Source: Gordius sp. MW1 (Eukaryota > Nematomorpha > Gordioida > Gordea > Gordiidae). Taken from it: a stretch of 64,000 nt of DNA. The notes under the pieces were generated by a model. That model was not told where the DNA came from and did no database searches. It saw nothing but the letters and a program-made list of their open reading frames with translations. Location: assembly GCA_964036665.1 (NCBI GenBank), contig OZ038531.1:15314168-15378167 (forward strand), written 5' to 3'. Both the position numbers and the translations under genes were made by a program. Of this stretch, positions 22,510 to 57,541 are shown piece by piece; the first letter of the stretch is position 1; each line of letters opens with the position of its first letter.

Positions 22510-24091
22510 GCTCAGTATTTAATTCAATTTTTGCTCAATAGAATTATCAATTGCTCAGTAAATAATTTAATGTTCTGTAATTTAATTATTTGCTGAGTAA
22601 TTAATTCATTTGTTCATTTATTATTTCTATAATGCACAGTAAATTTTTGCTCAGTAACTGAAATTTAATTTTACCTCTTTCTCACCTGGGGGGAGGGGGT
22701 GATTTGCCCCCCCCCCTTTTTCACCCCCCCCCCCCCCACCCCTTATTTTTTTACCCTCTTCCACACCAGGGAGAGGGAGGGTAGATTTGACCCCCCCCCC
22801 TTACTCTTTCTCATCCGGGGGGGGGGGGGGTGATTTGCACCTCCCCCCTATTTTTCATCCTCTTTCTCATTAGGGGGGGAGGTGATTTGCTCCCCCCCCC
22901 CTTTTTTTTGCCCTCTTCCTCACAAGGGGGAGGGGGGGGGGGGGGTGATATGGTTCCCCCTTTATTTTTTTGCCCTCATTCTCACCAGGAGGGGGGGGGG
23001 TGATTTGCCCTCCCCCCTTATTTTTTACCCTCTTTCTCAGCAGGGAGAGGGAGGGGGTGATTTAACCCCCCCCCCCCCCTTAATTTTTACCCTCTTTCTC
23101 ACCCGGGGGGGGGGGGTGATTTGCCCCCCCCCCCTTTTCTACCCCCTTCCTGACAAAAAGAAGGGGGGTGAGAAAAAAGGGGGGGGGGGCAAATCACCCC
23201 GCTCCCCCTCTGGTTGAGAAAGAGGATAAAAAGGGGGGGGGGGACAAATTACCCCCCTCCCCCAGAAAAAGGGTAAAAAGGGGAGGGGACAAATCACCCC
23301 CCCCCCCCGGTGAGAAAAAGGGTAAAAAAGAAAGAGGGTACCGGTGAGAAAGAGGGTAAAATAGGGGGGGGGGCAAATCACCCCCTCCCCCATTTAAGAA
23401 AAAGGGATAAAAAAGGAGGGGGGGGGAGCAAATCACCCCTCCCCCCTGGTTAGAAAGAGTATAAAAAATATGGGGGGGGGGGGGGGGGGTGAAAAGGGGG
23501 GAGGTCAAATCACCTCCCTCCCCCCAGGTGAGAAAAAGGGTAAAAAAGAAGGTGGGGGGGGGCAAATTACCCCCCTCCTCCCTGGTTAGAAAGAGGGTAA
23601 AAAATAGGGGGGGGGGGGGGTGGGGGTAAAAAAGGGGGGGGGCAAATTACCCCCCTCCCCCCTGGTTAGAAAGAGGGTAAAAAATTAGGCTGGGAGTGAA
23701 AAAGGGGGGGGGGGGGGGTTAAATCACCTCCCTCCCCCCAGGTGAGAAAAAGGGTAAAAAAAAACCTCTGGTGAGAAAGAAGGTAAAAAAAAATGGGAGG
23801 GGGGGGGGGAACCAACGGGAGTAAAAAAGGGAGGGGGGCAAAGTTCTTAATTTATTTAAAAAAAATTGTATGCCAAAATATTATTTATAAAATATAAGCG
23901 CAAAATAAATTATTATCACAAATTATGAATTTATATTACTGAGCATTTTAGGAAAAATACTGAGCTTTTTTTAATTTAAAGCTGAGCATTTTAAAGTTAA
24001 TTTACTGAGCAATTTTGAATTTTTAACTGGGCACTTTAATAAAATACTGAGCACATTTTACTGAGCATTTCTTAATTTATTACTGAGCATT
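22510..24091. repeat. G/C-tract palindrome, unit 3
   Basis: Same structure. Its right outer arm carries an extra short segment near 23990-24010 (an additional TACTGAGC motif) not present in units 1 and 2. Confidence 0.85.
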
Positions 24092-26124
24092 TAAATTACA
24101 TCCGTTATAATTTTAGGGAAAACAAGGCGACAAATTCAAATGGTTTTACCTATTCCAGTTAATTTTAGAAATTTGCTACAATTTAAGGGGATATGGATTA
24201 ATATATTATTTTTATAAAAAGCTGAAAAATAATCCGAATAAACATATTTAACGTTTTTTACTCATACAACTATAAATTATCTTAAAACATTGGCCCATTT
24301 TAGATGATAATTATTTAGAGAATAATTTTTAGGCTAATCTAGGTATTCCGATTGAGATCTAAATTAATGGTAAGGGGGGCGAAGGTAGGGGCGACAAAAA
24401 GGGGTGGGCAAGGGAGCAAAAGGGGGAGGGACAAGTAACAAGGGGGGCAAGGTGGCAAAGAGGGGGTCAAATAGTGGGGTGGGAGGGGACAAAAGGGCGA
24501 GGGGCAAGGAAGCACAGAGAGGCGAAACGAGGGGGTCAGAAATGGGGCGGACGGGGGCAATGGGGGAGTAAGCAATGGTCAAACTCTAAACAGGGGGTCA
24601 GAGAAATATATACACTTTTGGCCTAAAGGCTACCCGCTCACACTAACAAAAATGCACAAAAAAGGCATAAAAAATTGGCACATTAAGATTCAAATGAGGC
24701 CCGCAAAAAGAACAAAATGGTTTATCTTTGGCCGAGGAACGGTCATCATTTATTTTCAGCCAAAAAAATTTTTTAAGATATCTAGCTAAGATAGTATAAA
24801 TGCCAAAACCTGCAGGCACAAAAATAAAAATAAATTTGGCATTTGGCCGGGGTAAGATAAAGAAGAAGTAAGCAACGGTCCTCATTAATTTGCAATGAAT
24901 TATTGGACTAGGTCATAAATATAAAGCCAATCAGCGAACATTAGCTAGTCTATTTGCGAAAGCAAAATCAAGTCCACAGTCAATAAAAACCAGCATAAGT
25001 TTCCACGACAATTATTGAAAAATTACTAGTTGGACAGGATAGAAGGACGGACAATGGATGGACGAACAACCAGAAGCGAGCCCATAAATTGCATAGCGAT
25101 TAATAATAGGAGGACCCGGCGGATTGATTCTCAGTCACGGAGGTCTAAGTTGCAATAAATAAATAAATTCAAGAAAAGTCTTAAAACGAGAAAAGTGTTG
25201 GGAATACTGGTGTCCAGATAGTCGCCAAACTTTTCGACAATATAATGAAAGCGTGTAAAGTGCCGAACAAGTGGGAGAATAGCTATTTGATATTGATGGT
25301 GATGTTCAGGATTGTAACAACTACAGAGGGGTAAAGCTAATGAGCCATACTTTCAATTGGGATAAAGAGATCAAAAAAAGGCTCCGGGTTTTAATTAATA
25401 ATTCGGATTTATGCCGAAGAGTCTACATCAATTGCCCTGACCATTATTGGTAGAATATTAGTTTTCTGGACAGATGTCAAACTTTTAAATTCAACTGCAC
25501 AAGGAACTTTTCGAAGTCCACGAAGTGGTTTGCCCTGGTAGTGCTCCTGCTCCCCTACACTTCACATCACCCATCACGTCACCGCGACTATATAAACCGC
25601 ACGCCTCGCCATTATCGCATTCGCTCATTATCCACCGCACCTTGGCTCTACCTAGAGGCCTGCACGGGTCACCCGAAACCCGATCCGAGGTCGGGTTAGG
25701 TAAAAAAGCTTTCGGGTCGGTTTCGGGTTGAAAATTTTAGAATGCTTTCGGGTCGGGTAGGGTTGGATTTATAAAGTCGGGTCAATGGATATGTCTTACA
25801 TTATAAAATGAACGAAACATATGTTAAATTAATGGTATTATCTATAATTTTTGTAAAACAATATGGAATTGTATAACTAAATATAATCATTCATTCACTT
25901 AATCAATTCTTTTCTATTTTTTTAATTCGTTTAATTTGGAGGCAAATTTAAATTTACAGCTGAATCCCGAAAGGTTAAATATTAACAAATGATTATTTTT
26001 TATTGTTTATAGTCTATAGTCTACCAGTAGCGAGAGGTCCTTTTCCACTGCTGGGAGAGCTAATTTACGCCCATGGATTCTATTAACATTATATGCTTAG
26101 TTATAATTGAGAACAAATTATTGT

Positions 26125-27670
26125 GCTCAGTATTTAATTCAATTTTTGCTCAATAGAATAATCAATTGCTCAGTAAATAATTTAATGTTCTGTAATTAAA
26201 TTATTTGCTGAGTAATTAATTCATTTGTTCATTTATTATTTCTATAATGCACAGTAAATTTTTGCTCAGTAACTGAAATTTAATTTTACCTCTTTCTCAC
26301 CTGGGGGGAGGGGGTGATTTGCCCCTCCCCCCTTTTTCACCCCCCCCCCCCCCACCCCTTATTTTTTTACCCTCTTCCACACCAGGGAGAGGGAGGGTAG
26401 ATTTGACCCCCCCCCCCCCCTTACTCTTTCTCATCCGGGGGGGGGGGGGGGGTGATTTGCACCTCCCCCCTATTTTTCATCCTCTTTCTCATTAGGGGGG
26501 GAGGTGATTTGCTCCCCCCCCCCCCTTTTTTTTGCCCTCTTCCTCACAAGGGGGAGGGGGGGGGGTGATATGGTTCCCCCTTTATTTTTTTGCCCTCTTT
26601 CTCACCAGGAGGGGGGGGGGGGTGATTTGCCCTCCCCCCTTATTTTTTACCCTCTTTCTCAGCAGGGAGAGGGAGGGGGTGATTTAACCCCCCCCCCCTT
26701 AATTTTTACCCTCTTTCTCACCCGGGGGGGGGGGGTGATTTGCCCCCCCCCTTTTCTACCCCCTTCCTGACAAAAAGAAGGGGGGTGAGAAAAAAGGGGG
26801 GGGCAAATCACCCCGCTCCCCCTCTGGTTGAGAAAGAGGATAAAAAGGGGGGGGACAAATTACCCCCCTCCCCCAGAAAAAGGGTAAAAAGGGGAGGGGA
26901 CAAATCACCCCCCCCCCCCCGGTGAGAAAAAGGGTAAAAAAGAAAGAGGGTACCGGTGAGAAAGAGGGTAAAATAGGGGGGGGGGCAAATCACCCCCTCC
27001 CCCATTTAAGAAAAAGGGATAAAAAAGGAGGGGGGAGCAAATCACCCCTCCCCCCTGGTTAGAAAGAGTATAAAAAATATGGGGGGGGGGTGAAAAGGGG
27101 GGAGGTCAAATCACCTCCCTCCCCCCAGGTGAGAAAAAGGGTAAAAAAGAAGGTGGGGGGGGCAAATTAACCCCCTCCTCCCTGGTTAGAAAGAGGGTAA
27201 AAAATAAGGGGGGGGGGGGTGGGGGTAAAAAAGGGGGGGGGCAAATTACCCCCCTCCCCCCTGGTTAGAAAGAGGGTAAAAAATTAGGCTGGGAGTGAAA
27301 AAGGGGGGGGGGGTTAAATCACCTCCCTCCCCCCAGGTGAGAAAAAGGGTAAAAAAGAACCTCTGGTGAGAAAGAAGGTAAAAAAATATGGGAGGGGGGG
27401 GGGGAACCAACGGGACAAAAAAAGGGAGGGGGGCAAAGTTCTTAATTTATTTAAAAAAAATTGTATGCCAAAATATTATTTATAAAATATAAGCGCAAAA
27501 TAAATTATTATCACAAATTATGAATTTATATTACTGAGCATTTTAGATAAATACTGAGCATTTTTTAATTTAAAGCTGAGCATATTTGAGCAATTTTGAA
27601 TTTTTAACTGGGCACTTTAATAAAATACTGAGCACATTTTACTGAGCATTTCTTAATTTATTACTGAGCA
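26125..27670. repeat. G/C-tract palindrome, unit 4
   Basis: Same structure as in the other units, again with different G/C run lengths and a few substitutions in the outer arms. Confidence 0.85.
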
Positions 27671-29233
27671 TTTAAATTACATCCGTTATAATTTTAGGGA
27701 AAACAAGGCGACAAATTCAAATGGTTCTACCTATTCCAGTTAATTTTAGAAATTTGCTACAATTTAAGGGGATATGGATTAAAATATTATTTTTATAAAA
27801 AGCTGAAAAATAATCCGAATAAACATATTTAACGTTTTTTACTCATACAACTATAAATTATCATAAAACATTGGCCCATTTTAGATGATAATTATTTAGA
27901 GAATAATTTTTAGGCTAATCTAGGTATTCCGATTGAGATCTAAATTAATGGTAAGGGGGGCGAAGGTAGGGGCGACAAAAAGGGGTGGGCAAGGGAGCAA
28001 AAGGGGGAGGGACAAGTAACAAGGGGGGCAAGGTGGCAAGGAGGGGGTCAAATAGTGGGGTGGGAGGGGACAAAAGGGCGAGGGGCAAGGGAGCACAGAG
28101 AGGCGAAACGAGGGGGTCAGAAATGGGGCGGACGGGGGCAATGGGGGAGTAAGCAATGGTCAAACTCTAAACAGGGGGTCATAGAAATATATACACTTTT
28201 GGCCTAAAGGCTACCCGCTCACACTAACAAAAATGCACAAAAAAGGCATAAAAAATTGGCACATTAAGATTCAAATGAGGCCCGCAAAAAGGACAAAATA
28301 GTTTATCTTTGGCCGAGGAACGGTCATCATTTATTTTCAGCCAAAAAAATTTTTTAAGATATCTAGCTAAGATAGTATAAATGCCAAAACCTGCAGGCAC
28401 AAAAATAAAAATAAATTTGGCATTTGGCCGGGGTAAGATAAAGAAGAAGTAAGCAACGGTCCTCATTAATTTGCAATGAATTATTGGACTAGGTCATAAA
28501 TATAAAGCCAATCAGCGAACATTAGCTAGTCTATTTGCGAAAGCAAAATCAAGTCCACAGTCAATAAAAACCAGCATAAGTTTCCACGACAATTATTGAA
28601 AAATTACTAGTTGGACAGGATAGAAGGACGGACAATGGATGGACGAACAACCAGAAGCGAGCCCATAAATTGCATAGCGATTAATAATAGGAGGACCAGG
28701 CGGATTGATTCTCAGTCACGGAGGTCTAAGTTGCAATAAATAAATAAATTCAAGAAAAGTCTTAAAACGAGAAAAGTGTTGGGAATACTGGTGTCCAGAT
28801 AGTCGCCAAACTTTTCGACAATATAATGAAAGCGTGTAAAGTGCTGAACAAGTGGGAGGATAGCTATTTGATATTGATGGTGATGTTCAGGATTGTAACA
28901 ACTACAGAGGGGTAAAGCTTATGAGCCATACTTTCAATTGGGATAAAGAGATCAAAAAAAGGCTCCGGGTTTTAATTAATAATTCGGATTTATGCCGAAG
29001 AGTCTACATCAATTGCCCTGACCATTATTGGTATAATATTAGTTTTCTGGACAGATGTCAAGCTTTTAAATTCAACTGCACAAGGAACTTTTCGAAGTCC
29101 ACGAAGTGGTTTGCCCTGGTAGTGCTCCTGCTCCCCTACACTTCACATCACCCATCACGTCACCGCGACTATATAAACCACACGCCTCGCCATTATCGCA
29201 TTCGCTCATTATCCACCGCACCTTGGCTCTACC

Positions 29234-29920
29234 TAGAGGCCTGCACGGGTCACCCGAAACCCGATCCGAGGTCGGGTTAGGTAAAAAAGCTTTCGGGTCG
29301 GTTTCGGGTTGAAAATTTTAGAATGCTTTCGGGTCGGGTAGGGTTGGATTTATAAAGTCGGGTCAATGGATATGTCTTACATTATAAAATGAACGAAACA
29401 TATGTTAAATTAATGGTATTATCTATAATTTTTGTAAAACAATATGGAATTGTATAACTAAATATAATCATTCATTCACTTAATCAATTCTTTTCTATTT
29501 TTTTAATTCGTTTAATTTGGAGGCAAATTTAAATTTACAGCTGAATCCCGAAAGGTAAAACATTAACAAATGATTATTTTTTATTGTTTATAGTCTATAG
29601 TCTACCAGTAGCGAGAGGTCCTTTTCCACTGCTGGGAGAGCTAATTTACGCCCCGAAATTGTAGACGCCACAATATTTATACATAATTATAGTAAATCAA
29701 TTTAATAAATTTATTAATCAAATTTTGTATGATCATTTCTGTCGAAGAAATTTTTTATACTTGGTGGAGTCCAGGTTGAAAATTTAAAAACGCTTTAGGG
29801 TCGGGTCGGGTTCGGGTTGAAATTTAAAAACGCTTTCGGTCGGGTCGGGTTCGGTTTAAAAATTTAAAAACGCTTTCGGGTCGGGTTCGGGTTGAAAAAA
29901 AGTGACTTTGCAGGCCTCTG
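29234..29920. mobile_element. hAT-type MITE with 8-bp target duplication
   Basis: 687 bp, starting TAGAGGCCTGCA and ending TGCAGGCCTCTG, flanked on both sides by GCTCTACC (29226-29233 and 29921-29928). Subterminal CGGGTCGGGTTCGGGTT repeats lie near both ends. This is the only complete copy in the array. Units 1-3 keep only the left ~420 bp (from 18474, 22038 and 25653), because the tandem junction falls inside the MITE at 29653. Confidence 0.9.
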
Positions 29921-29989
29921 GCTCTACCTACCCTGTCCCTCACTTAACGTTTTATTACTCCTCCTTACCTTAAAATTATTTGGCTAGAG

Positions 29990-31450
29990 TAAAATGCCGG
30001 AAACTGGATTCCAAAGTGAGACTGGACGGCAACCAGGTGCTGGCTTAAGTAACTCCCCACTTACACCGGAAAACTCGCGAGACGCTTTTTGGAGCCCTGT
30101 TAGACCAGGGAACCCCAGTGCGGGATCGAAAAATGTTGTCCAACAATCGCTAGAGTTGAAAAGGGAGCAAGCCCGAGCGAATCGTGAAGTCATAGAAGGA
30201 ATGCGAATTATGATGCAGGCCATGATGTTAAATCAAGCTAGACGACACAGCACCCGCCCCTTCTGCGGTCAAAATAATATCGGCCCCTGAGCCACCTAAA
30301 CAGCCAAATGATTGTCTTGCTGATATAAAAAGGCATGCAGCAGGCCTCGAAGCCTTGCAAGACCCGGATCAAAGGGTCCAAACGCGCGACAAGCATAGAG
30401 CCAACTTCGCCATTAAAATGCCTCAACTTGTCTAGAAACTTCGCCAGTCGACCTTTTAACGACAGCCGATAAACAATAAAAACCCTTTGCCTGCCACGGC
30501 AATAAAACACGACACCTGATGGGATACAAAAATGTTAATGTAGCACACCCCACTACATCTGCCAAAAAACAATTTTTCCGAGCGCTAGCAGGAACCGAGG
30601 CCAAAAGCAGAGCCGCAACGTCAAAAAGGAGGGGCCGTGCCGCGCGTTAGAAAATTAATCGCGCACACCGTCGAGCAGTGGGAACAGGGGCTTCCGGGCG
30701 CACTGACTCTCGATGGGGATCAAGATATTAGTTCTCCTCGCTGGTGGAAATTAATCAAAAACTTTCTAAAGGAGCGTGCCGTAGCATCTTCTCACCGCAT
30801 CCCCTTTCCGACAAACCCCTCCCCCCCCCCCCACTAACCCCTTCGCGTCCGCCGCCAATACCCGCGCCTGACTACCCGGAGATACCAGCCGACACCACGG
30901 ACCGCTTTACACCCACTGATGATTCCCTCGGTCGGGGCGCCGGGTCGGGATTCATCCCGTCCATCGTGGACGCTCATCGCGTCAATTCAAATGGGGGAAA
31001 AAGCGTGTGTCTAATAAACCTACAAGGCCTCTAAGTGTCCGCACATCACGCCTCAAACCGCACCCCCTAATGTTTCCTTTCACCTTGATCTAAACAAAAT
31101 TCGCAAAATGACGGCATTTTCAAGCCCGAACACCGCAAAGGATCTCAAAGGGGAGCCCAAACTACTTCACAGAGCTTATTGAAAAGGGAATAGTATCACA
31201 AACCAATCCCTTGCCACCCCTCTGCCATTCTTCATTGCCAAAAGCAACGGCAATGCCAGAGTGATTACCGACTTGTCCCTAGCCTCCAGTATCAATTTTA
31301 AATTGGCCACAATCCCTCTAACAGCCCCCAAACTGTCCAAAGCAAACTATGGGGCCAAAATCAATCTAAAAGCAGCCTTTTTCAGTACAGACAACCTATG
31401 AAGACAACCGACCCCAATTTATAAGAAAAATATTTAAAAATATTGTATGG
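29990..31450 (+). pseudogene. GC-rich retroelement relic (gag-like plus RT)
   Basis: The open frame at 29994-30290 (starting MPETGFQSETG) and short downstream frames look like a gag region without a known domain. Near 31200-31385 the plus strand reads FFIAKSNGNARVITDLS, then LTAPKLSKANYGAKINLKAAFF. This is the N-terminal part of an RT of the LTR/DIRS superfamily, where a (K/R)-IDL-AF motif carries the first catalytic Asp; here that position reads Asn (KINLKAAF), so the site is lost. The region is much richer in GC than its surroundings. Frameshifts break it, and it ends before the catalytic YxDD. Which LTR or DIRS group it belongs to is not resolved. Confidence 0.6.
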
Positions 31451-34157: not shown

Positions 34158-34767
34158 TTAAGAGGATTGATCTGTTATTTCAGGGTTTAAGATGTCTGAT
34201 GGCACTTCTTTATAATAATCATCTGGATAAGTTCTCCCCTGATATAATTTTGGTATTGGCCTCATACTATCATGAATGTGAGGCCTTGACAAATATCCTT
34301 GGGGAAACCTTGTAAGTCCAAGCTTTTTATACATACAATAATCAAAGCCTAACTCCTTTTTCTTACATCTACAAAATACATTTACATTATTCATATTTTT
34401 TGATACAAACCTATAAAATTCTTTTGAAGACGAGTACCAATCTAAGCAAGAATAAAATTTTTCAAATTCCTTTGGGCAATTTTCCTTAACTTTATCAAAA
34501 AATTCTAAAGCACATAGAGTTAAAAATTTTCCCTCTTTAATACACTTTCTAGGGTCTCTAGTTTCCTGCCTACATAACCAAAATTCCTATTATTTAATTT
34601 TAATTTAAAGTTATGTGTTTTACATTATTTTGGGCATAACAATGTTTAATAAAATGTCTGGCACCAGCAAATAATGGAACAGATGTCAATTTTATCTCAG
34701 GGCAATCTAAATCTTCATCCGTTGGCAATTGTGATTTGTCTGTGACTGAACCATGAATACCCGCCAT
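34158..34767 (-). CDS. NDUFA8: NDUFA8, complex I 19-kDa CHCH subunit
   Basis: Three minus-strand exons, 34767-34624, 34586-34411 and 34368-34158, encode 176 aa (human protein 172). The introns are 37 and 42 bp, both GT-AG. The second has a length divisible by three and no stop, so an unspliced reading would wrongly add 14 residues; removing it restores alignment (FYR-CKKKELGFDYC). Four CX9C motifs are visible: CYAQNNEFWLC, CIKEGKFLTLC, CPKEFEKFYSC and CKKKELGFDYC. This is the family's twin-CHCH signature for disulfide-dependent import by Mia40 into the intermembrane space. Conserved features include SVPLFAGARHFIKHCYAQN, the ETRDPRKC block and KLGL. It is an accessory subunit of NADH:ubiquinone oxidoreductase. 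The start is the first ATG of the conserved frame. Confidence 0.95.
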
Positions 34768-41241: not shown

Positions 41242-41502
41242 AATTTAGCTGCTCCCCACGGGACTTAGAAATTTAATTCTTGATAATAACAATGGGAATG
41301 ACTTAATTATTGGGGAAACCACTTCTCAATAGATGCCACTTTTTAATATACGAATAACAGTGTCAGTGGGATCGAGGGGCTAGTGGCTCCCGTTGTAGAA
41401 CAGCCCGATTAATTAAACTCGCTGAAGGGGATTGAATCATGATGCCCTCAGCAGTAATATTGCTAGAGTGGACAGAAGGTAAAAAATAGTTTTGAAAAAA
41501 TT
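41242..41502. repeat. 261-bp direct repeat flanking the LINE, left copy
   Basis: By eye this is identical to 44140-44400. The right copy starts at the end of the LINE poly(A) tract. The left copy stops where LINE sequence begins and the right copy continues into unrelated DNA. This is the layout of a target-site duplication, here unusually long. Confidence 0.85.
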
Positions 41503-44139
41503 TATAAATTTGATAACCTCCATAACTAATGATCCTATGAACCTTGCTAATTGGGACAAAATCCTTAAATTCTCATACCACACTCTCTTTATCAGGCCTC
41601 CCGAAGACTTAAACCTATCTAAACAGATAAAAGACTCCATCGTTACTTTTGATATCAATAAACCCTTATGTTCTTCCCATACAAAACCTGGTTTTGCATC
41701 ATCACTGAAACATACTGCAAAGCTAGTATCTAACAAAATTAACCACTTTAATCCAAAAGGAGCTCTGAGGGTGTTTTATGGCAACGATACAATCGCCCCA
41801 AGCACACAGGAAACTTACAACCAGCTTATACTAAAACATCCTCCTTCTTCATCCTCAGATAAATATCCCCACTCTAAATCCAACATATCCTTAGATTCCG
41901 CTGAGGTCGCCGAAGCCATTAACTCATTTCCCCTAGATTCTGCAGCTGGCCTAGACGGAATCCGCCCTATATATCTCCAAGATTTACTTAAAATGAATAA
42001 CCTTAACTCAACATGCCTCTTAAAGGCCATAACATCTTTATGCAACCTTATTGTTAATGGGAACATACCTTATGAAATAATACCTATTCTGTTTGGCGCC
42101 AAATTGATAGCGATTAAGAAGCCAGATAATTCCCTAAGACCTATCGCTATTGGCGGAGTATTTAGGAGGATTATTTCGAAAATAAAATGCAATAAAATTA
42201 AACCGATTCTTTCCATCAACTTAAGTCCACACCAATTAGGTTTTGGAATAAAGGGAGGCTGCGAAGCTGCTAGTCATGCCGCTAGGCTAGCCCTCGAATT
42301 CATACCATCGGACCATTGCATGGTCAAATTAGACTTTGCTAACGCTTTCAATTGCATTCGTAGAGACGTCCTTATTAAAAATTTTCTCGAGGATTTTCCA
42401 GAGTTCCATAACTACATCCTATTAAGTTATGGCTCAACATCCTTTTTAAGATTTGGGGATTTTACAGTTAAATCAACTGAAGGTATCCAACAGGGTGACC
42501 CATTGGGTCCGCCATTATTTTGCTTAGGTATTCAAAGTTTAGTAGAAAAAATATCGCACGAATGCGACCTATCATTAAATATATGGTACTTGGACGATGC
42601 CACCCTTTGTGGCCGTCCTCGCGAAGTTTTTAAAGCTATCAAAATTATAAAAGAATTCGAACCAATTTTAAAACTTAGACTAAATGAGACCAAATGTGAG
42701 ATCTTTCAACCCCCTGACTACACATTATATCCCCACGTTACCCCTTTTTTAGCAATCAAGAAAGACGCTATGTGCCACCTTGGATCGCCCATAGGCGGTA
42801 GGACTCGCTACTTATTTGGAGAAAAATCTCTCTATTTTAAAGTCAAAATTAGATCTCTTAAAGTGTCTGCCTTCACATCACGCTTTTTACATAATAAAAA
42901 ACTATTTTAATATTTCAAAGATTCAGCACTGTTTTCGCTCTTCAAGTGCTTTTTTACACTCGGAAATTTTAAACCTCTTCGAACAAAATATTAAATCTAT
43001 TTTACAATCTATTTTAAATATTAAATTCAATACTCATAGCTGGTTACAAGCTTCCCTACCAACCAAATCGGGTGGTTTAGGGATTCGCTCACCGGCCTCA
43101 ATATCTCTAGTCTCCTTTATTTCATCTTATAAATCCGTACAAGATACCATTTTTAAGTTGTATCCGGTTAAAGAAGACCCGCTTCTACCCATTGCTTTAG
43201 CTACTTGGGAAAACAACACTAATCCCGAAACACATTTGCCACAAACCTCACGACAAAGAGATTGGGATGCCGGACTTGTGTTGCACTCCGTTGATTATCT
43301 AATTTCGAGTAGCGATGCAAGTCAGTGTTCTAATTTAAGGTCGTTTTTGTTTGATGGCTCAGGTCACGAATGGCTAGAGGCCTACCCAAGCTGTCTCACC
43401 GGGATGATGCTGGAGGACTCGGAGCTTTCGTACTCCATAGCACTCCGGCTAGGGGTGAAATTTTCGAAGACATTTACTTGCCGAAATTGCAGCATACTCG
43501 TAGACGAACAAGCCAGGCATCCCTTACACTGCCTGGCAAACAAATTCAAATATGCTAGACACAATAAGGCCAACGCCTTAATTCAAAGTGCCCTGAAGAG
43601 AGCAAAGATTCCATCCATCTTGGAGCCATCGGACCCCGCCTTGGAGGGACGTATGCGTCCTGATGGATCTTCTTTAGTCCCATGGAGCAATGGTCTTCAC
43701 CTTAAATGGGACTTCACATGTATTGACCTATTTGCCCCCTCTAACTGCAACAATGATTCTTTAGCTGTTGCAGAGGGGCGGAAAACCAATAAATACAAAG
43801 CTTTATTATCCTCAAATATTTTTATTCCATTGGTTGCTTCGTGTTCAGGCACCTTTGGCAAACAGGCCTTAGCTTTTTTTAAAGAGGTTGGAAGACGTTC
43901 TCCCCCGTCTAAACATTCGGTACCCTTTTTACTAAAACAAAGACTTGGTATTCTTATAGCCAAGTACAACTTTAAATCGTTCGCGGATTCTTGGCCAATT
44001 TTGGAAGATCCCCTCGATGATGTTATATCCGAATAGTGTATTATTTTATTCGGCGCATTTTGCCTTTTATATTTCATGTATTTATATTATATTACTGTCA
44101 GCGGATTTTTAACAAATAAACTTTTTAAAAAAAAAAAAA
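41503..44139 (+). pseudogene. 5'-truncated LINE: RT plus restriction-like endonuclease
   Basis: Two overlapping frames (open from 41492 to 42910 and from 42816 to 44036) are one protein split by a single frameshift near 42830-42850. The first is RT: GLDGIRP, a LRPIAIGGVFRR block, KLDFANAFN with the first catalytic Asp (codon at 42332), QQGDPLGPPLF, and WYLDDATL with the Asp pair at 42593-42598. The second holds a thumb region, a CRNC...HPLHC zinc knuckle and RPDGSSLVPW...LKWDFTCIDLFA, then AEGRKTNKY. That is the CCHC plus RPD...D layout of the restriction-like endonuclease of R2-type elements. No ATG opens the first frame; it begins at TTG inside the flanking repeat, so the N-terminal DNA-binding part is missing. 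A poly(A) tract closes the element. Confidence 0.88.
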
Positions 44140-44400
44140 AATTTAGCTGCTCCCCACGGGACTTAGAAATTTAATTCTTGATAATAACAATGGGAATGAC
44201 TTAATTATTGGGGAAACCACTTCTCAATAGATGCCACTTTTTAATATACGAATAACAGTGTCAGTGGGATCGAGGGGCTAGTGGCTCCCGTTGTAGAACA
44301 GCCCGATTAATTAAACTCGCTGAAGGGGATTGAATCATGATGCCCTCAGCAGTAATATTGCTAGAGTGGACAGAAGGTAAAAAATAGTTTTGAAAAAATT
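44140..44400. repeat. 261-bp direct repeat flanking the LINE, right copy
   Basis: It follows the poly(A) tract without a gap and matches 41242-41502 along its length, then diverges at CATAACTAAGG. Confidence 0.85.
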
Positions 44401-44961
44401 CATAACTAAGGGGACTGGGTACACACTAGTTTAACTAAGCATGCTGATAATACGCACTCGCTCTTGACATCGAATAAAATTGATTGAATTGTCTGGCATT
44501 CAAAATCAGCGTCACATTGGCGCCCACTAAATAAGCATTGATTAAGGAAACTAAACACCATAATGGTCTTTCAAAAGTGACGTTAAATCTGAAAACAATC
44601 TTAAATTTGTATTTAACAATAAGAAAGCCAAGTCTTTTATAAAAAAATCATTCCTTAATCCATAAAAAAGCTAAAATCTATTTATCAAAAGTGCCCGCAT
44701 TGAGGCGACCACGGAATAAAAATATTAGGGCTTGCCAGGGTGAGTCAGGGAAAGGCGGCTCCCCCCCCCCCCTTTATCGATTTTTTTATATTCATAAAAT
44801 TTTGGTTTTCAAATATTATATCATTTTTCCCTTTCCTTAATCATTACCAAACTTTATGCCTCCAGCCAAATTTATTTTTAGGCTCCCCTGATAAGGATTG
44901 ATATCAGATTACTATAGAGATTGTTAATTCTACAATCTCTATGCATTCTAAGGTGGCTCTT
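44401..44961. other. intergenic between the LINE and the duplication
   Basis: No gene is seen. A C run near 44761-44773 lies within sequence resembling the GGCGTAG-type MITEs, but the ends are not clear. Confidence 0.4.
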
Positions 44962-45493
44962 TAATTTAAAATATTTTAACATAGCCATGTGTGTAACTTC
45001 TTAATTTATTACCTTTTAATTTTGTTCTACTATGCGAATATCTATACTTAAATTTCAATAATTTAATTTATATCAAGGTTTAGATAAATATATGTTAGAA
45101 TGATTAATGAAGATATCATTTCTTAAATTTGAACAAACATTGAGTGATATCACAAATAATATTGGTTTAAGGAAAAAGTGGTGATATCAAGTTTGTAATC
45201 AATAAATCTAATTGAAGATGTATAAAATGCCTTGTCTTGTGTGTAAATACTAAAAATAAAATACTCCTAAGTCATCAAAAGAGAACTCTGATATAGATAC
45301 TATTTATATAACTTTTGCTTTGCCTTCCTTCAATCTTTTTTAGCTATCTAACTCGACAAACAAAACAAATTATTCAATTCAACAAATAGTGGTGACCTAC
45401 TTTAACAAATATAAAAACAGTAAATTAATATGAACATCCATAATTATTAAACAAAAAAAAATTAAAATACACCATAAAGACTTTGTTTAGCTA

Positions 45494-47478
45494 ATGATCA
45501 ATTATCTTAAAGCAAGCTTTTTTCTTTTTTATCTTCTATCATTTGCCATTGCAAGTATAATACCTAATATTAAATTATTTTAAACTCATTTGAACATTTG
45601 AAATTTTGATAAAATGTTTAATTTATTTGGTAGATGAGCAAGAAATTGAAGAGGTGGGTGTTTTAGCAAATGACGGTAAGTCAGGAAATACTTTTATAAT
45701 AATACTTTAAGATTTTGAAGCCGAAATTATTCCAGGATATAATGTTTGTAAGCTTTTATATTGACCCTTATAATAATATTAAAAAATTTTAAATAGCCAA
45801 AGGCCCATCTCATTTGGATTTAAATAAGAGTGTCGACAATGGTAAATTATATATGCATTTAGAAATAAATCGTAAATAAATACATATAAACATTCATTTA
45901 TTATTATTTTAACTTTAAGATTTTTACTATAATTTTTTCTATAAAAATATAAGTGAGCTAATTTAAAATTTAAAATGCGTCTTTCTGTTTAGTTAATGTG
46001 TCTAAAGAATGGGTTAATGTGGAAACCATACCAGGGCATAATCGCTGTAAGTCTCAAAATATTTCTGCTAATTAAATTTAATTAAATAAATGTAAGAATG
46101 ATATTGCCTTTCAATTTTTTTTAACGACCAAGTTTAAATTGTTAAAAACAGCAATTCATCCAAATTACCTTGAAAATGAAGAAAATCTAGAAATCGGTAA
46201 AATTATTAAAAATATAATATCTTTTTCTACCATTTTATTATATTTGTTTAGAGCCTAAACTTGGAAGTAATAAAGTTTTAAATACTTTGAATACTATAAA
46301 TATTAATTTTTATAGACGTAGCCAGGATTTGGAAAAAGGGGAAGGGGGATATAAAACGATTAAAAATTTTGTTTTGAAATTAAATTTTTTTATTTTTTAC
46401 TATTCTTTCTCAAATGCGGATGACTTGGCCCTCAACTCCAATTAAAACTCAACATTATTTAATAGGGACTAATAATAAATTACCCAACATTTTTTTAATG
46501 TTAAATTTGAAATTAAAATTCGTATCTTAGCCAACCCCTCAATGATCTTGCTCGGTCTTATTATTGTGCATATTTTTATTTAACAGCTACTTGTGACACA
46601 CAATAAAGGCAAAACAGATCTTTTGGCTATGTCGAACTATTTCTTGTGTCCATTTAAATACACATTTGGGCAATAGGAAAAGAAAGCCTGATAATGCAGA
46701 AACGCTATTAATAATTTAAAATTACCGGTTATCGTTATTAATGTTAGTCTATATAAGTTGAAGTTGAGTTTCGAGAAAAGAGACGAGACAAAATGCAAAT
46801 TATTTATATTTTTAGCGCTATTTAAGTGTTTGTTAGATTTTTTGTCCTTTAAGGGAGGACAGCTGGCTCTCGGTCTCCATTTTGGCAACGCTCATGTTAA
46901 TTAGTATCACATAATTTTGTTAGGATAATTTTATCTTTGTTGTCGCATAAAAAAACAACAAATCATTTTAATAATAAATTATAATTAAGGTGATTTTGTA
47001 TAACATTGTTCATAGAGCGTGGTGGATTCCGAAGAAGTAGCATATATAAAATAATCATTAATTATCTATGAAACCAAATAATTTTTTACAAATATTTTAT
47101 TAAAACTTATTTTATTATAAAATTATAATTTTGTAAATGAGAATAAATGTGACAACATTTATTATATAAAGAGGTATAGAATTATATTTATGTGTATTTT
47201 ATTATTCAAAAGACTACTTTATAAGAAGACTAGGAGGATGGTGTGGTCGAAGAATAGGTAAACTAGCTTAAAACGATATTTTAATAATGTGTGTAGTAGC
47301 TAAGGAATTTTTTTAGACATCTAATCATAGCTAAGAATTTTACATTAACCATCTTGAATAATTACTGATCTTGACTTCCTCCTTATATATCTACAGCAAT
47401 GCTGGCTACGCCTTTAATATATCTAAATGGTCCTGTTTCTTGAACATTTTTAAAATTAATCTTATTTATTTAGGTTAA
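45494..47478 (+). CDS. secreted micro-exon protein, paralogue 1
   Basis: Ten exons: 45494-45554, 45634-45675, 45712-45747, 45797-45841, 45993-46046, 46152-46196, 46252-46266, 47016-47036, 47234-47257, then the stop exon at 47474 (GT plus TAA 47476-47478). Every junction is GT-AG. All eight internal exons are phase 1-1 and 42, 36, 45, 54, 45, 15, 21 and 24 nt long. The product is 115 aa. Residues 1-20 are a signal peptide (MINYLKASFFLFYLLSFAIA) with an A-x-A cleavage site. An acidic stretch follows (NEQEIEEVGVLAND), then two IPG(Y/H)N motifs (residues ~42-45 and 75-78). The tail is basic (EPKLGKRGGFRR, RGWCGRRIG). A splice-acceptor-like TTTGTTTAG ends 3 nt before the ATG. The function is unknown. 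The layout resembles schistosome micro-exon genes. The last two exons are the least certain. Confidence 0.78.
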
Positions 47479-50084
47479 AGAGACAGGCAAAATAGATAGG
47501 TATTTGTATATTTGTAATACCTAGCTTTAAAATGAATATAATCATTTTTTTGTATATTAGATACCAAATTAGCTAGAAAATATTTGTGTCCTAGTTTCAG
47601 TTTATGTCAAATATGAATATTATAAAACTATTTAGAATAAACCACTATGATAGTAGATGAGTAAAATGGATTTCATCAAATATTTATGAATAATACAGGC
47701 GTGTTGTTTAGGAATAAAATAGCAAAAGATACGTTTTTAATGTTATTTAATAATAATCAAAGACTGGCGGACAAATTAAATTTTATATGTGGCACACCCA
47801 ACTGGCAGGATATATGGCGTTAAATAAGTATTAGGCATAACAAATGGTGCATTAGTGTTAAAAGTTGCGGTCTTATATTAGTTCAAAAATATTAAATAAA
47901 ATATTATCTTTACTTTGTAAGTTATCCATTACCAGAACAAAGTAGCTGGAGGGGAGTTGAGCCCTCCGCGTTTTTATAAGTTAATTTAGAAAGTGATTTC
48001 TATTGCATTCAAAAATTGAACAGTTTACACTTTAAATCTAATAAAACCAAATGTTTTGTACAAAAATGACTTTATTGACAAACTATGTTAAAAAATCATG
48101 ACTTCGAAACGGTGTCAAGAAAAGTTTTAATGGTAATCATATCACGTTCAGTCCTTATTTCGAAAAATAACAATTTTTGGTGCAAGTTAAATATAAAAAA
48201 AGTAGTTGTTATATAATGATTATCGAATTTTAATCTGCTTTTAAGAAATTAAATTTTCCATTATTATATGGTCTCCCTTAATGTAGTTAAATTATTATCC
48301 CTATTTTAAAAACAAAGTATTATTTAGAATTAAACATAATTTTTATACAACTCTTACACATATTTGTGAATGGGCTGATAATGAATTATCTACCGATGCT
48401 ATGTTTAATTTAACTCAGGCCATATTACTGGCATTTAGTGATGCGGAAAATTTAATAAAAATCTCGATACTTTGAAAAATTGAGTTGAAATCGAGATCAG
48501 AATTTCGACCTTGAGGCAGGACGATACGAGAATCTATCAACGAGAGCTCGGCTTTAAAATTCCTTTATTGACCATCAGAATCTAAATATACTAAATTAGT
48601 GTATGTTTTAATTTGTGATTCACATTTAGGATGTTAAATGTAAATTAATATAATTGGAATACATTTGATATTGGCGAATTTGCACAATCGATAGCCGCGT
48701 AAATTTAAATTTTTTAGCTTATTTAATAAAACTTGAGTGGCCCTTAGGGCATGGTAATTATTTTTTAATATATCTATTGCATATATGTCCTTAGCATTAA
48801 TATGTAATATAAACATAGAGACTTAAAATGTCTGATGAAGTAGTAAATTTAATAAAGTATCTTCAACTTTCGCAACATTTACATCATCCTGTTTGATGGG
48901 ATGGTACTTTTTATAGGTAGTTATTTAAAATTACTTATATAAAAAAAATTCCCAATAGCGTTTGTCACACTAAGGTTGTCAGCTTCTTTATATATTTGGA
49001 TGAGGGTCCAGGCCTGACAGCCGTGTTGATGATGTGGTATATTTTACCTTTTAAAAACAAAGTTCTAAAAGCGTGATTTGAACTCGCCGGCTTTTTCAGA
49101 GACAAATATGCCAACTACGCCCCCACGCCCCATAATTAAAAATACTTATATAAATCTAAAAAAAATTTGAGTATCACTTCAAAGGCATTAGTTTAGATCA
49201 TGACTCAACCAGAAGTTAGCTATGCTTAATCTCAAGGTACTACCGCTCCAAGCCATGATCACATAATGTATGTGTTTTGCCATTAATATTACCTTTCACA
49301 TCAGTAGGGTTGGCAAGTAAAATATAATAATCTGAGCTTTCTATGCTATTTTCCACATCATTAAAATATATGAGCATAAGCTATTAAAAAATATTTTATG
49401 GTTAAATTATTTAAAAAATGGATCAAATAAATAGTTGGGACAGAATATGAGTTGTGCCACTATAATAGAATCTTTTACTTTTAGAACAATTGTTATAAAA
49501 ATATATAGGCGTAATTTACTGAAAAGCTAAAAACTTTCATATTCCAATTTCAACAAGTACGCCACTTTTATTGGTGTTTTTAAAACGTTGTAATGCCTGG
49601 GACTATTTACACATGTTATGAATAATGATAAAAAGTATCCACAAGTACCTTTCAGGCTTCTATATCAATATAATGCGACATATTGATAACTCAGAAACGT
49701 TCTATCCATTGTATAAGTTTTTCTCTAGAAACAAACTGATGACGATTATTATATTAGAGGGCTAAAACTCTTGTCTTAGATTACTTATCTAACGGCTTTA
49801 GTTATGTTTGCCAATACTAACTAAGGGTACCACCTAGTTCAAATATTAAATTACATGTTTATAACGGTTTTTAAATAAAATGGTTTGCCATTTTTATTTT
49901 TAAATAAAAAGTGAGATAGTTTAAAAATTACATAAAAGTCGAGACATGCAAAGATTTCTAGTGGAGACGAGATCAAGATTCTCACAATGGCGCCCAAAAC
50001 GAGACAAAATTTTGATTTCGAGGACGAGATGAGATCGAAACACTACCATATATAATCAAAACAGGTTTATTCATCTACTATTAA

Positions 50085-52190: not shown

Positions 52191-52750
52191 TAATTTAAAA
52201 TATTAACATAGCCATGTGTGTAACTTCTTAATTTATTACCTTTTAATTTTTTTCTACTTTATGTATTTCTATACCTAAATACCAATAATAATTTGATTTA
52301 TATCAAATTTTAGAGAAATAAACTTTATGCTAGAATGATTAATGAAGATAACATATTCATAAATTTGAACAAACATTAAGTGGTATCACAAAAAATTGTG
52401 GTTTTAGATAAAAAATGGTAATATCAAGTTTGTAATTTTAATTAATAAATCTAAATTTGGAAACCTAAATTTAAAGGTGTACAATTTGCTTTGTCTTGTA
52501 TGTAAATACTAAAAACAAAATACGCCTAAGTCATCAAAAGTCTGAGAACTTAATATATATATATATAGATACTATTTATATAACTTTTGCTTTGCCTTCC
52601 TTCGATCTTTTTTGCTATCTAACTCGACAAACAAAACATATTATTCAACTCAACTAATAGTGGTGACCTACTTTAACAAATTAAAAAAGACTAAATAAAT
52701 ATGAACATTCATAATTTTAAAAAGTACACCATAAAGACTTTGTTTAGCTA

Positions 52751-54686
52751 ATGATCAATTATCTTAAAGCAAGCCTTTTTCTTTTTTATCTTCTATCATT
52801 TACCATTGCAAGTATCATACCTAATATTAAATTATTTTAAACTCATTTGAACATTTAAATTTATGATAAAATGTGTAATTTATTTGGTAGATGAGCAAGA
52901 AATTGAAGAAGTGGGTGTTTTAGCAAATGACGGTAAGTCAGGAAATACTTTTATAATAATACTTTAAGACTTTGAAGGCAAAATTATTCCAGGATATAAT
53001 GTTTGTAAGCTTTTATATTGAACCATATATAATATGATTAATACTATTTAAATAAGCCAATGGTCCAACTATTATGGATTTAAATAAGAGTATCCCCGAT
53101 GGTAAATTATATATCCTTTTAGAAATAAATTGTAATAAATGCGTATAAACATTTATTTATTCTCATTTTAACTTTAAGGTTACTATTAAAATTTTTCCTA
53201 TAAACAATAAGTGTGAGCTCCTTTAAAATTCATAATGAGTCTTTCTGTTTAGTTAATGTGTCTAAAGAATGGGTTAATGTAGAAACGATGCCAGGACATA
53301 ATTGCTGTAAGTCTCAAAATACTTCTGCTAATTAAATTTAATTAAATAAATGTAAGAATGATATTGCCTTTAAATTTTTTTTAATAACCAAGTATAAATT
53401 GTTACAAACAGCTATTCATCCAAAGCACCTCGAAAATGAAGAAAAGCTAGAAATCGGTAGATTGATTAAAAATATAATCTCTTTTTCTACTAATTTATTA
53501 TATTTAATTAGAGCCTAAACGTGGAAGTAATAAAGTTACAAATACTTTGAGAAATATAAATATTAATTTTCATAGGCGTAGCCAGGATTTAGAAAAAGGG
53601 GGGGGGGAATAAAATGATTAAAAATTTTATTTTAAAAATTAATTTTTGTAATTTTTTATTAATCTTTCTCAAACGCGTGTTCCTCAACTCCAATTAAAAC
53701 TTAACATTAACTATAAGGGATTAATAATAAATGATCCAACATTTATTTATTTTTTAATGGTAAATTTGAAATTAAAATTTGTATCATAGCAAACCCCTCA
53801 ATGATCTCGGCCTCATTATTGTCCATAGTTTCATTTAACAGCTACTTGTGACACACATTAAAAGCAAAACAGATCTTTTGGCAAAGTCGATCTTAACCAT
53901 GTTTTATTTATTTCTTGTGTCCATTTAAATCCACATTCTAGGGATAGGAAAATACGTGAAATGCAGAAACGCTATTAATAATTTATAAATACCGGTTAGA
54001 GTTATTAATGTTAGTCTGTATCAGTTAATTGAGTTTCAAGAAGGGGGACGGGGCAAATTACAAATTTTTTATATTTTTAACGCTATTTTTGTGATTTTTT
54101 TGTTTTTTGAGAGAGTACAGTTGGCTTCCTGTCTCCTTTTGGCATTTAATTAGTATCACATAATTAACTATAATTTTGTCTTTATTGTCGCATAAAAAAC
54201 AAAGCAACAAACCAATTTAATAATAAATTAAAATTAAGGTGATTTTGTATAATATCGTTTACAGGGCGTGGTAGAAGTTCAGGAAGTAACATATTTTAAA
54301 TAATATTATTTTTACATGAAACCAAATAATTTTTACAAATATTTTATTATAGGAAGAGGTATATATTATTTATAACTTATTTCATAATTAACATGATAAC
54401 TTTGCAAATGGGAATAAATGTGACGAACATTTATTATAAAAAGAGGCATATAATTATACTTTTATGTGTATTTTATCGTATAAAAGACTATTTTTTTAAG
54501 GAAGAGGATGGGGTCGTGGAAGAAGAGGTAAACTAGCTAAAAAAGATATTTATTATATTGGTTGCGGCTAAGAATTTTTTTATACATATAATATAGCTAA
54601 GAACAGTATATATCTACGGCAAAAAAAAATCTAAATAATACTGTTCCCTAAATACCCTTAAAATAACTTATATTTATTTAGGTTAA
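52751..54686 (+). CDS. secreted micro-exon protein, paralogue 2
   Basis: Exons: 52751-52811, 52891-52932, 52969-53004, 53057-53101, 53253-53306, 53412-53456, 53512-53526, 54265-54285, 54501-54527, then the stop exon at 54682 (TAA 54684-54686). The product is 116 aa. The layout equals paralogue 1 exon for exon, apart from 27 instead of 24 nt in the last small exon. The signal peptide is MINYLKASLFLFYLLSFTIA. The acidic exon is unchanged in protein sequence. The fourth exon is strongly altered (NGPTIMDLNKSIPD against KGPSHLDLNKSVDN). The tail is even more basic and Arg/Gly-rich (KRGRRGRSSG, then RRGWGRGRRG). Conservation of exon lengths, phases and splice sites in both copies, while the introns have drifted, supports a real gene. 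Confidence 0.78.
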
Positions 54687-55063
54687 ACAGACAGGTAATA
54701 CATAGGTTTTTTTTACTTGTATATTTGTAATACTATCCTTAAAATTCATATAATCACTTTTTTGTTTATCAGATACCAACTTAGCTAGAAAATATTTGTG
54801 CCCTATTTACCTATAAAAGTTTTAGTTTATGTCATATATGAATATTATAAAGATTATTTAGAATAAACTAATATGATATTAGATGAATAAAATGGATTTT
54901 ATCAAATATTTATGAATAGCACAGGCATGTTGTTGTTTAGAAATAAAATAGCAAAAGATACGTTTTTAGTGTTATTTAATAATAATCAAAACGCTGTCCG
55001 GACAATTTAAATTTATATGGGGCACAACTGGAATGATATATGGAGTTAAATATGTATTGAACA

Positions 55064-55319
55064 CATAGGCGTAACTAAGATTTCCTCAAGTGGGGGGGGG
55101 GGGTATAAACTTTTCAGGGTAAATTTTTTTGTAACTATTTTATAGGATAAAAATGTTTTTTTTCCTAAAAGTCTAAAGTAACAAAAGCGTACAAATAATA
55201 AAATACTAAAAGTAAAATTCCAACAAATATTAGTTTTTATTAAATATACAATATAAAAATTATGTAATTTAAAAATCATGGGAGGGGTTCTACCCAAAAA
55301 CAACCCCCTCCCTACAATG
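55064..55319. mobile_element. MITE, insertion specific to copy 2
   Basis: 256 bp, starting CATAGGCGTAACTAAG, with a G run near 55091 and ending CCCTACAATG, flanked by ATTGAACA (55056-55063 and 55320-55327). Copy 1 shows no insertion at the matching place near 47830. Confidence 0.85.
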
Positions 55320-57541
55320 ATTGAACATTACAAATATATGGTGCATTCGTGTTAAAAGTTGCGGTCTTTTAATAGGTGAAAAATTTTAAATAAAATATTA
55401 TTTTTACATGGCAGGTTATCCAATAGCGGAAAGAAAGAAAAGGGGGTTGGGCCCTCCGCGTATTTTAGGGAAAGATAGTTTAAGAATTGATTTCTATTGC
55501 ATTACAAAACTGAACAGTTAATTATTGCACACTTTAAATCTAATAAATACCATTTATGCAAAAATGACTTTATTGACAAAAATTCCTTGCGATGATAAGT
55601 TACGTTAAGGTTATAATAATCATGACTTTTCATTTTAACGAAGCGGTTTCAATGAAAGTTTCACTGGGAATCATATTACGTTTGAAACCTCCGTCCTAAA
55701 CTTTCGATAAATTGCAACTTACGATTATGATGCAGATCAAAAATTATGTAATGATTATTAAATTTTTATCTACTTTTAAGAAATTTAATTCTCCATAATC
55801 ATTTAAGGTTCCTTTTAACGTGATTAAATTATTATGCTTTTTTTAAAAAATTTGAACTAAAACATCATTTTTATACAACATTCACACAGATTTGTGAATC
55901 GACCGATACTATGTTAACAATCCAACATTTAACTAGGGTATTTTCACTGGCATTTAGTGATGCGGAAAATCCAATAAAAATCTCGATCTCGTCTGACGAG
56001 ATGAGATTTTAAAAATTGACCCGACTTCGAGGAATTTTGACCTTGAGGCAGAAAAATACGAGATTCTATAAGCGAGATCTCAGCTTTAAAATTCTTTTAT
56101 TGGCTATCATAATCTAAATATAGTAAATTAAGATGTGTATGTTTTAATTTGTGATTCACATTTAGGATGTTAAATGTATATTAATATATAATTGAATTAC
56201 ATTTGATATTGGCTAATTTGCAAACTCAGTAGCCGAGTAAAATTTAAAATTTTTAGCTTCTTTAATAAAATATGAGTAACCCTTAGGGCATGTTGATAAT
56301 TTTTTAATATATCTATTGCAGAGACTTAAAATGTCTGATGAAGTGACAATTATTAATAAAGTATTTTCAAATTTCGCAACAATTACATCACCCTGTTTGA
56401 TGTCGGTAGTTAATTAAAAATACTTAATAATTATAAAAAAATTTGAGTAACACTTCAAAAGCATTACTTTAAATCATGACTCTACCAGAAGTTAGCTTCA
56501 CGGTACACAGCTTTTAGTCAAGCCACAATCACATAACGCATGTGTCTTGATAGTTACATTACCTTTCACATTATAAAGGTAGGGCTGGCAAGTAACTCTG
56601 AGCTTTCTATGCTATTTTCCACTACATTAAAATATATATGATCATAAGCTATTAAAAAATATTATATGGTTAAATTATTTAAAAAATGGATAAAGTAAAT
56701 ATTTTGGGACATAATATGAGGTGTTGCACTATAATAGAATTGTTTACTATTTACGTTTGTTATAAAACTATATAGGCGCAATTTTTTGAAAAGCGAAAAA
56801 TTCTCATATTCCTATTTTAGTAAGTATGCCACTTTTATTGACGCTGTAATGCCTACGACTAATTACACATGATAAAATATATCCACAAGTACCTTCCAGG
56901 TTCTTATAACAATATAATAAAGATGCGACATATTGATAACTCAAAAAAGTTCAATTAATTGTACAAGATAGTTATTTTTTAGGAACAAATTGATAACGGT
57001 TAAATTATTAATATAAAAGCAGTCACACTTATTTTCTCCAATGCTAACTAAGGGTAACACAACACCTAGTTCAAATAAGTAAATGACATGTTTATAAAAG
57101 TGGTTCACCATTTTGATTTGTTAAAAATTAAAAGTCAGATATTTAAAAAAAAAGTTGAAAGGCGAGACATTTCAAGATTTCTCGTCGAAATCGAGATTCT
57201 CACAATAACGCCCGAGACAATATTTTGGTTTCGAGACTGAAACGCGATACATTACTGGAATTATATAAACCAAAACAGGTTCTTTCATCCAATATTAATA
57301 AGATGTTTAACTGGACTGGATCCATCGCAGTCATAAAAGCTGCCAAAAATGTAGTAAAGAGATTAAAACTGAGAAATAATTCTTCAACATAATTTTATGT
57401 TATATTTAAAAGTATTTAATTATTAGAGAAACAATAATTTTCAACAATGTTTTATAGTGTGAAAATTCATATTTTTAAGTGCAATTATTTTGAATTAATA
57501 TGAAAATCAGCTAAACACTAGAAATTATGTATATCATGATA

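Follow-up and report, generated by a model that had tools for sequence, protein, structure and literature searches.

Does the locus at 45494-47478 carry a spliced gene for a small secreted protein, built from symmetric micro-exons, or is the chain of exons that can be drawn there one that such DNA offers by chance? The locus lies in a window of 64,000 nucleotides, by which we mean the whole stretch of DNA that was analysed. An earlier note had described, without an exon list, a signal-peptide exon followed by eight in-frame internal exons, and the ten exons treated here are the set that was found to fit its stated properties. Such a set does exist: from the ATG at 45494 to a stop codon ending at 47478, exons of 61, 42, 27, 45, 54, 45, 15, 21, 24 and 5 nt can be joined, in which all eight internal exons (15-54 nt) are multiples of three in length, are phase 1-1 and have AG...GT borders, with GT...AG introns, the first six of which measure 45-151 nt. 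The joined product had been put at 115 aa; it comes to 112 aa at this locus (copy A) and to 113 aa in a tandem paralogue (copy B). Splice sites were ranked in copy A with our own generic splice-site weights, donors among 89 GT and acceptors among 105. The generic weights were used throughout because the kinase-derived splice set, with 15 introns, was small and noisy. The exons of copy A are as follows.

45494..45554, plus strand: exon 1, the ATG and a signal-peptide-like MINYLKASFFLFYLLSFAIA; its phase-1 donor, gtataa, is weak (rank 60/89)
45634..45675, plus strand: exon 2, 42 nt, phase 1-1, supported; donor rank 1/89, acceptor 6/105
45721..45747, plus strand: exon 3, 27 nt, phase 1-1, encodes EIIPGYNV; donor rank 3/89, acceptor weak (65/105)
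45797..45841, plus strand: exon 4, 45 nt, perhaps a cassette exon
45993..46046, plus strand: exon 5, 54 nt, phase 1-1, NVSKEWVNVETIPGHNR, supported; donor rank 1/89, acceptor 1/105
46152..46196, plus strand: exon 6, 45 nt, phase 1-1, supported; donor rank 21/89, acceptor 34/105
46252..46266, plus strand: exon 7 as drawn, 15 nt, present in some best chains and absent from others
47016..47036, plus strand: exon 8 as drawn, 21 nt, doubtful in the drawn frame
47234..47257, plus strand: exon 9 as drawn, 24 nt, doubtful in the drawn frame
47474..47478, plus strand: exon 10 as drawn, GTTAA, with two coding bases before the stop; acceptor rank 4/105, little support

The candidate signal peptide of exon 1 was judged from its hydrophobic stretch alone, and the exon, if left unspliced, forms a 29-aa ORF that is open in both copies. 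Exons 3 and 5 share the motif IPG[YH]N, and both end in E-x-I-P-G-[YH]-N followed by gtaag. These like ends suggest an old exon duplication.

The recurrence of the exons in a paralogue had been counted in favour of the gene. We found the same junctions in copy B, which belongs to the second unit of a tandem duplication:

44962..50084, plus strand: duplication unit 1, which holds copy A and aligns with 52191-57298 as seven pieces, 74-89% identical
52191..57298, plus strand: duplication unit 2, which holds copy B and is the counterpart of 44962-50084
52751..54686, plus strand: copy B, the tandem paralogue, 7.3 kb downstream, with the same junctions
52751-52811, 52891-52932, 52978-53004, 53057-53101 and 53253-53306, plus strand: exons 1-5 of copy B
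53412-53456, 53512-53526, 54265-54285, 54501-54527 and 54682-54686, plus strand: exons 6-10 of copy B

Since the paralogue lies within a duplication of about 5 kb, its sharing of the exons is to be expected and carries little weight, and the introns are nearly as similar between the copies (86.5% identity) as the ten drawn exons (88.8%). Exon 9 is 27 nt long in copy B and 24 nt in copy A. Exons 1-8 align with zero gaps and, taken jointly, give a dN/dS of 0.87 (8 silent and 26 replacing differences). The 3′ half of the alignment has many gaps, and the 5′ half shows lower divergence.

It had also been argued that eight in-frame, phase-matched exons would not readily arise by chance. This argument did not hold, as 464 of 500 pieces of 1,920 nt, taken at random from the window and from four neighbouring 10-kb stretches of this genome, permit a chain of eight or more in-frame phase-1 GT-AG micro-exons. 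The longest chain had a median of 11 exons in the random pieces and has 13 at the real locus, and 2.2 kb of copy A hold 49 open symmetric phase-1 candidates of 12-60 nt. The exon count alone is thus no evidence for a gene. In AT-rich DNA of this sort, in-frame micro-exon chains are nearly always available by chance, and genes of this kind therefore need transcript or multi-species evidence.

We then scored the two copies together by joint dynamic programming (DP), which combined codon use, the generic splice weights, a frame open in both copies and conservation, and which was given no exon structure. Codon use was trained on kinase exons of the same genome (36 stop-free stretches from 30 kinase loci, five of the stretches lying in one ORF), and intron costs of 8, 10 and 14 were tried. 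At every intron cost the top joint chain contained exons 1, 2, 5 and 6 together with a version of exon 3, always in phase 1, with best scores of 60.5, 46.5 and 25.2, respectively. Exon 2 was present in every joint chain reported. Exon 3 kept its drawn donor in these chains, while its acceptor was always other than the drawn one, 45712 or 45736 being preferred. The codon score was 0.127 bits per codon in copy A and 0.164 in copy B, resembling that of kinase exons of the same genome (-0.031 to 0.175 at eight held-out kinase loci). On the minus strand, no chain with a signal-peptide exon was found.

The observed score was compared with matched nulls, in which exon 1 was fixed, random sequences were placed downstream and the real differences and gaps between the copies were transferred site by site. 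When exons were limited to phase 1 and to 66 nt, none of the 9,501 matched nulls attained the observed score; with any phase allowed, 28 of 9,501 did so at intron cost 10 and 21 of 9,501 at cost 14. When exons of up to 250 nt were permitted, the nulls attaining the score rose to 57 and 256 of 8,050 in phase 1, and to 319 and 563 of 8,050 in any phase; real coding and transposon sequence makes up some of the null pool and raises null scores once long exons are allowed. Under plain random divergence with exon 1 fixed, the score was attained by 70 and 9 of 2,498 nulls in any phase and by 0 and 0 in phase 1. When exon 1 was left free and whole 2.5-kb pairs were used, 18 and 2 of 7,168 attained it in any phase, against 0 and 1 when phase 1 was required. 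A first null set had given 0 of 300 pieces. The window, on its two strands, offers about 50 pieces of 2.5 kb to choose among.

The evidence gathers on the front half of the chain, namely exons 1, 2, 3, 5 and 6. For exons 2, 5 and 6, as well as for exon 4, the phase-1 frame alone is open in both copies, and in exon 5 the ratio of silent to replacing differences is 3 : 2 in the phase-1 frame, as against 1 : 4 and 0 : 5 in the other frames. This core, an exon set chosen after these divergence data had been viewed, differs between the copies at 15 of 229 sites, compared with 208 of 1,538 intron sites (Fisher p = 0.002); its dN/dS, with 6 silent and 9 replacing differences, is 0.36. Neither the silent excess of the core by itself (p = 0.07) nor its contrast with exons 4, 7 and 8 (2 silent, 17 replacing; p = 0.10) is significant. 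Part of the conservation of the core is regional, because introns 1, 2 and 5 beside it are as conserved as the core itself (94%, 98% and 94% identical between the copies). Altogether, the earlier reading of the locus as a spliced, secreted micro-exon gene is supported for exons 1, 2, 5, 6 and, with a provisional acceptor, 3 by the joint DP, the open frames, the donors and the dN/dS, but weakens over the 3′ half. The evidence backs only the front half, and the ten-exon version lies mostly within what chance allows.

The weakening begins with exon 4, which is absent from all joint chains reported and differs between the copies at 10 of 45 sites (1 silent : 9 replacing). Pooled, exons 4, 7 and 8 have 19 differing sites out of 81 (23.5%), more than the introns at 13.5% (p = 0.02). 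When the drawn chain was imposed on both copies (forced scoring, intron costs 8, 10 and 14), exons 4 and 8 reduced the score at all three costs and exon 9 did so at costs 10 and 14, though exon 9 is slightly underrated here because its acceptor in copy B lies 3 nt away. At cost 8, exons 7-10 lifted the forced score from 43.1 to 52.7; at cost 10 they left it nearly as it was (33.1 without them, 34.7 with them), and at cost 14 they brought it down from 13.1 to -1.3. Exon 8 differs at 8 of 21 sites, with 3 silent and 5 replacing differences in frame 0 against 1 and 6 in the drawn frame as counted there; exon 9 has 3 silent and 1 replacing in frame 0, which brings a stop in copy A, against 0 and 4 in the drawn frame. 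By their silent differences, exons 8-9 appear to fit frame 0 better than the drawn frame. Joint chains at cost 8 likewise picked exon 8 in frame 0, and DP on copy B alone picked it in the drawn frame. In phase 1, copy B alone gave exons 1, 2, 5, 6, 7, 8 and 9 as drawn with a different last exon, and copy A alone gave exons 1, 2 and 5 and then others than those drawn. Exon 10 occurred in one joint chain only, ranked fourth at cost 8 in phase 1, and the donors of exons 6-9 rank 15-29/89 in copy A.

Other 3′ ends can be drawn. Exon 6 is a possible terminal exon, since reading on past its donor leads to a TAA at 46256-46258 through a frame that is open in both copies. At costs 8, 10 and 14 this read-on, scored to 46256, reached 42.7, 34.7 and 18.7, and the drawn ten-exon chain reached 52.7, 34.7 and -1.3. 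An AATAAA follows at 46269, one of nine listed in 1.9 kb. An alternative last exon, proposed by the single-copy DP on copy B, lies at 47559-47615, where both copies have a T-rich acceptor and a similar frame, x-T-[KN]-L-A-R-K-Y-L-C-P.

The plan of the locus had been likened to that of schistosome micro-exon genes (MEGs). As described in a 2023 review (PMC10526429), MEGs of Schistosoma mansoni combine a signal peptide with a run of very short exons whose lengths are mostly divisible by three, and are hard to annotate; they have 10-20 exons of 6-81 bp, mostly 15 bp, with introns of 0.1-5 kb, and they number 35 genes, with verified proteins and a hydrophobic motif with Trp after the signal peptide. 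The locus has a candidate signal peptide in exon 1, as MEGs do, and the drawn model would share the short exons that follow. It differs in having five supported exons, introns of tens of nucleotides up to 151 nt among the first six drawn and two tandem copies, in being known from DNA alone, and in its host, which is very probably a hairworm and not a flatworm. Ten short exons, the lower end of the MEG range, are allowed by the sequence, but random pieces allow chains of that kind as readily. The hydrophobic Trp motif was absent from both products, as read by eye, and in place of a multi-gene family two tandem copies were found among the best candidates scored in DNA, motif and protein searches. 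The resemblance thus stands for the form of the architecture and extends to form only, in another phylum and with no further members found in the genome.

A second comparison is with the bicycle genes of aphids. Excerpts of the report on these (PMC9168663) describe putative gall effectors with a signal sequence, many short internal exons and fast protein change; the internal exons nearly all begin at codon position 2 (intron phase 1), and the genes are detectable by structure and not by sequence. They average about 17 exons and, in the same excerpts, are recorded from aphids, phylloxerids and scale insects but were missing from three outgroups, and putative homologues outside aphids also lack the CYC motif (PMC9168663). 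The drawn model, and the core as picked, would likewise have short internal exons starting at codon position 2, and the CYC motif was absent from the products of copies A and B. The published bicycle structure classifier, whose cut-off is given as 0.72 in the excerpted text (PMC9168663), returned P = 0.998 for the drawn model and 0.926 for the core; such values are near-automatic, because the chain was picked for short phase-1 exons. By analogy, the locus may work like MEGs or bicycle genes; we mean by this a resemblance of plan, and claim neither homology nor membership.

Searches of the genome for relatives led back to the two copies. A whole-locus DNA search for a larger family returned copies A and B and one 105-base match on contig C7. 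A motif search for IPG[YH]N with gtRAG directly after it, at most one mismatch being allowed, found four places in A and B and one isolated match elsewhere in the genome (2 matches in the reversed control), and a protein search of the genome to E = 10 gave six places in A and B and one noise match. No retrocopy or further relative was present among the best-scoring candidates of these searches, which diverged members could escape. One Pfam match (E 0.039, below its cut-off) and one PDB match (E 0.048) were both taken as noise. Chitin_bind_4 had zero matches in the genome, a weak result, since the control set gave none either. Among the literature matches listed, no paper joined hairworms with micro-exon genes, and none on worms generally dealt with micro-exon or bicycle genes.

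The host was assigned from its mitochondrial DNA. The genome spans 211.8 Mb in 12 contigs, one of which (C12, 14,798 bp) is mitochondrial. AAA and AGR codons in its COX1 fall on sites that we take to be conserved Lys and Ser, and a flatworm origin was dropped because of the AAA codons on the presumed Lys sites. Of the 23 inverted-repeat pairs on the contig that are 30 nt or longer, 16 are 100% complementary; many of the pairs lie inside frames that we read as nad1, atp6, nad5 and nad6, the ORF names except COX1 being our own reading of the translations, and none lies inside the Pfam match of cox1. A+T is 66% in the 10 kb of the contig that were measured. Excerpts of a study of Nematomorpha (Mikhailov et al. 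2019, PMC6649704) describe mitochondrial genomes of about 15 kb, using the invertebrate mitochondrial code, with long perfect inverted repeats inside protein genes, never in cox1 as there reported; repeats in atp6, nad1 and nad5 are common to four species, and A+T is near 65% in Gordionus (PMC6649704). With inverted repeats of this kind in its mitochondrial DNA, the host can very probably be placed in Nematomorpha, the hairworms. An aphid or insect origin, suggested by the architecture, was dropped as well, on the zero Chitin_bind_4 matches, in themselves a weak argument, and because the mitochondrial genome fits Nematomorpha. A tandem repeat array stands right before COX1 on the mitochondrial contig (L008 3690-4005). 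Nuclear copies of COX1 also occur: one is full-length (C8:2829490-2830827), with frame length and TGA count as in the mitochondrial gene, and several more are partial or broken.

On balance, we lean slightly towards the view that the locus is a tandem-duplicated gene for a small secreted protein of a hairworm, with a 3′ end that is probably other than drawn. The sequence features and the two-copy statistics are what has been shown; splicing, secretion and site of action are inferred from them. In this gene, exon 1 would encode the signal peptide and be spliced in phase 1 to the short symmetric exons 2, 3 (with a provisional acceptor), 5 and 6. The predicted mature chain, about 56 aa up to exon 6, would be acidic and carry the repeated IPG[YH]N motif; the signal peptide would direct it out of the cell, and it would probably be released inside the host or on the body surface. 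Skipping an exon keeps the frame because the exons are symmetric, and splicing could drop or add pieces without loss of frame. The 3′ end may be formed by read-on of exon 6 to the stop at 46256-46258, or by further exons other than those drawn. If the exons outside the core are real, their mainly replacing differences between the copies would point to fast change.

A rather unlikely but serious alternative is that there is no spliced coding gene, the chain being a chance selection of AG...GT segments in AT-rich DNA that recurs through the duplication, with at most the 29-aa ORF, open in both copies, as a coding sequence. The ease with which random pieces yield eight exons, the 49 candidates in 2.2 kb of copy A, the dN/dS of 0.87 over exons 1-8 and the closeness of exon and intron identities are all as this alternative would have it, as are the 319-563 of 8,050 nulls that attain the score under the loosest settings. 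It sits poorly, however, with the phase-1 micro-exon score that none of the 9,501 matched nulls attained, and with a core less divergent than the pooled introns at a dN/dS of 0.36.

Two further accounts accept a gene and differ from the reading we favour over its 3′ half. That both copies derive from a once functional secreted gene and are decaying in their 3′ parts, with constraint visible only in the 5′ exons, would explain the lower divergence of the 5′ half, the many gaps in the 3′ half and the finding of two copies only, but we judge it very unlikely, given the same open core in both copies and exons 1-8 without a gap. That the full ten-exon gene is correct as drawn, ending in an Arg/Gly-rich C-terminus, is in our view very unlikely indeed. 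Both copies have every one of its junction dinucleotides, phase-1 DP on copy B recovered exons 1, 2 and 5-9, exons 7-10 raised the forced score at cost 8, and the classifier value was high, as it was bound to be for such a chain. Against it stand the loss of forced joint score caused by exons 4, 8 and 9 at costs 10 and 14, the excess of silent differences in another frame for exons 8-9, the greater-than-intron divergence of exons 4, 7 and 8, the middling donors of exons 6-9 and the best joint chains, which end elsewhere.

Beyond the single locus, one may speculate that hairworms independently evolved secreted proteins from symmetric phase-1 micro-exons, reshuffled by splicing and acting at the interface with the arthropod host, and that the tandem pair is the first to be seen; we regard this as improbable. 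If true, a third parasitic lineage would show this unusual gene design, after schistosomes with their MEGs and aphids with their bicycle genes, and its phylum is one noted for altering how hosts behave.

Other features were noted in the window. A reverse-transcriptase element at 41242-44405 comprises a pair of overlapping ORFs (475 and 413 aa), the first with an RVT_1 match. Direct repeats of 266 nt, 99.6% identical, stand on either side of it, which is odd for an element of LINE type. The G+C-rich repeated region at 15700-30000 carries proline/glycine-rich ORFs on both strands, and a nearly identical 138-aa ORF at 18104, 21668 and 28864. On the minus strand, 34158-34586 is an exon resembling NDUFA8, a complex I subunit (best PDB match 2e-19), and has 14 extra residues at one place relative to that match.
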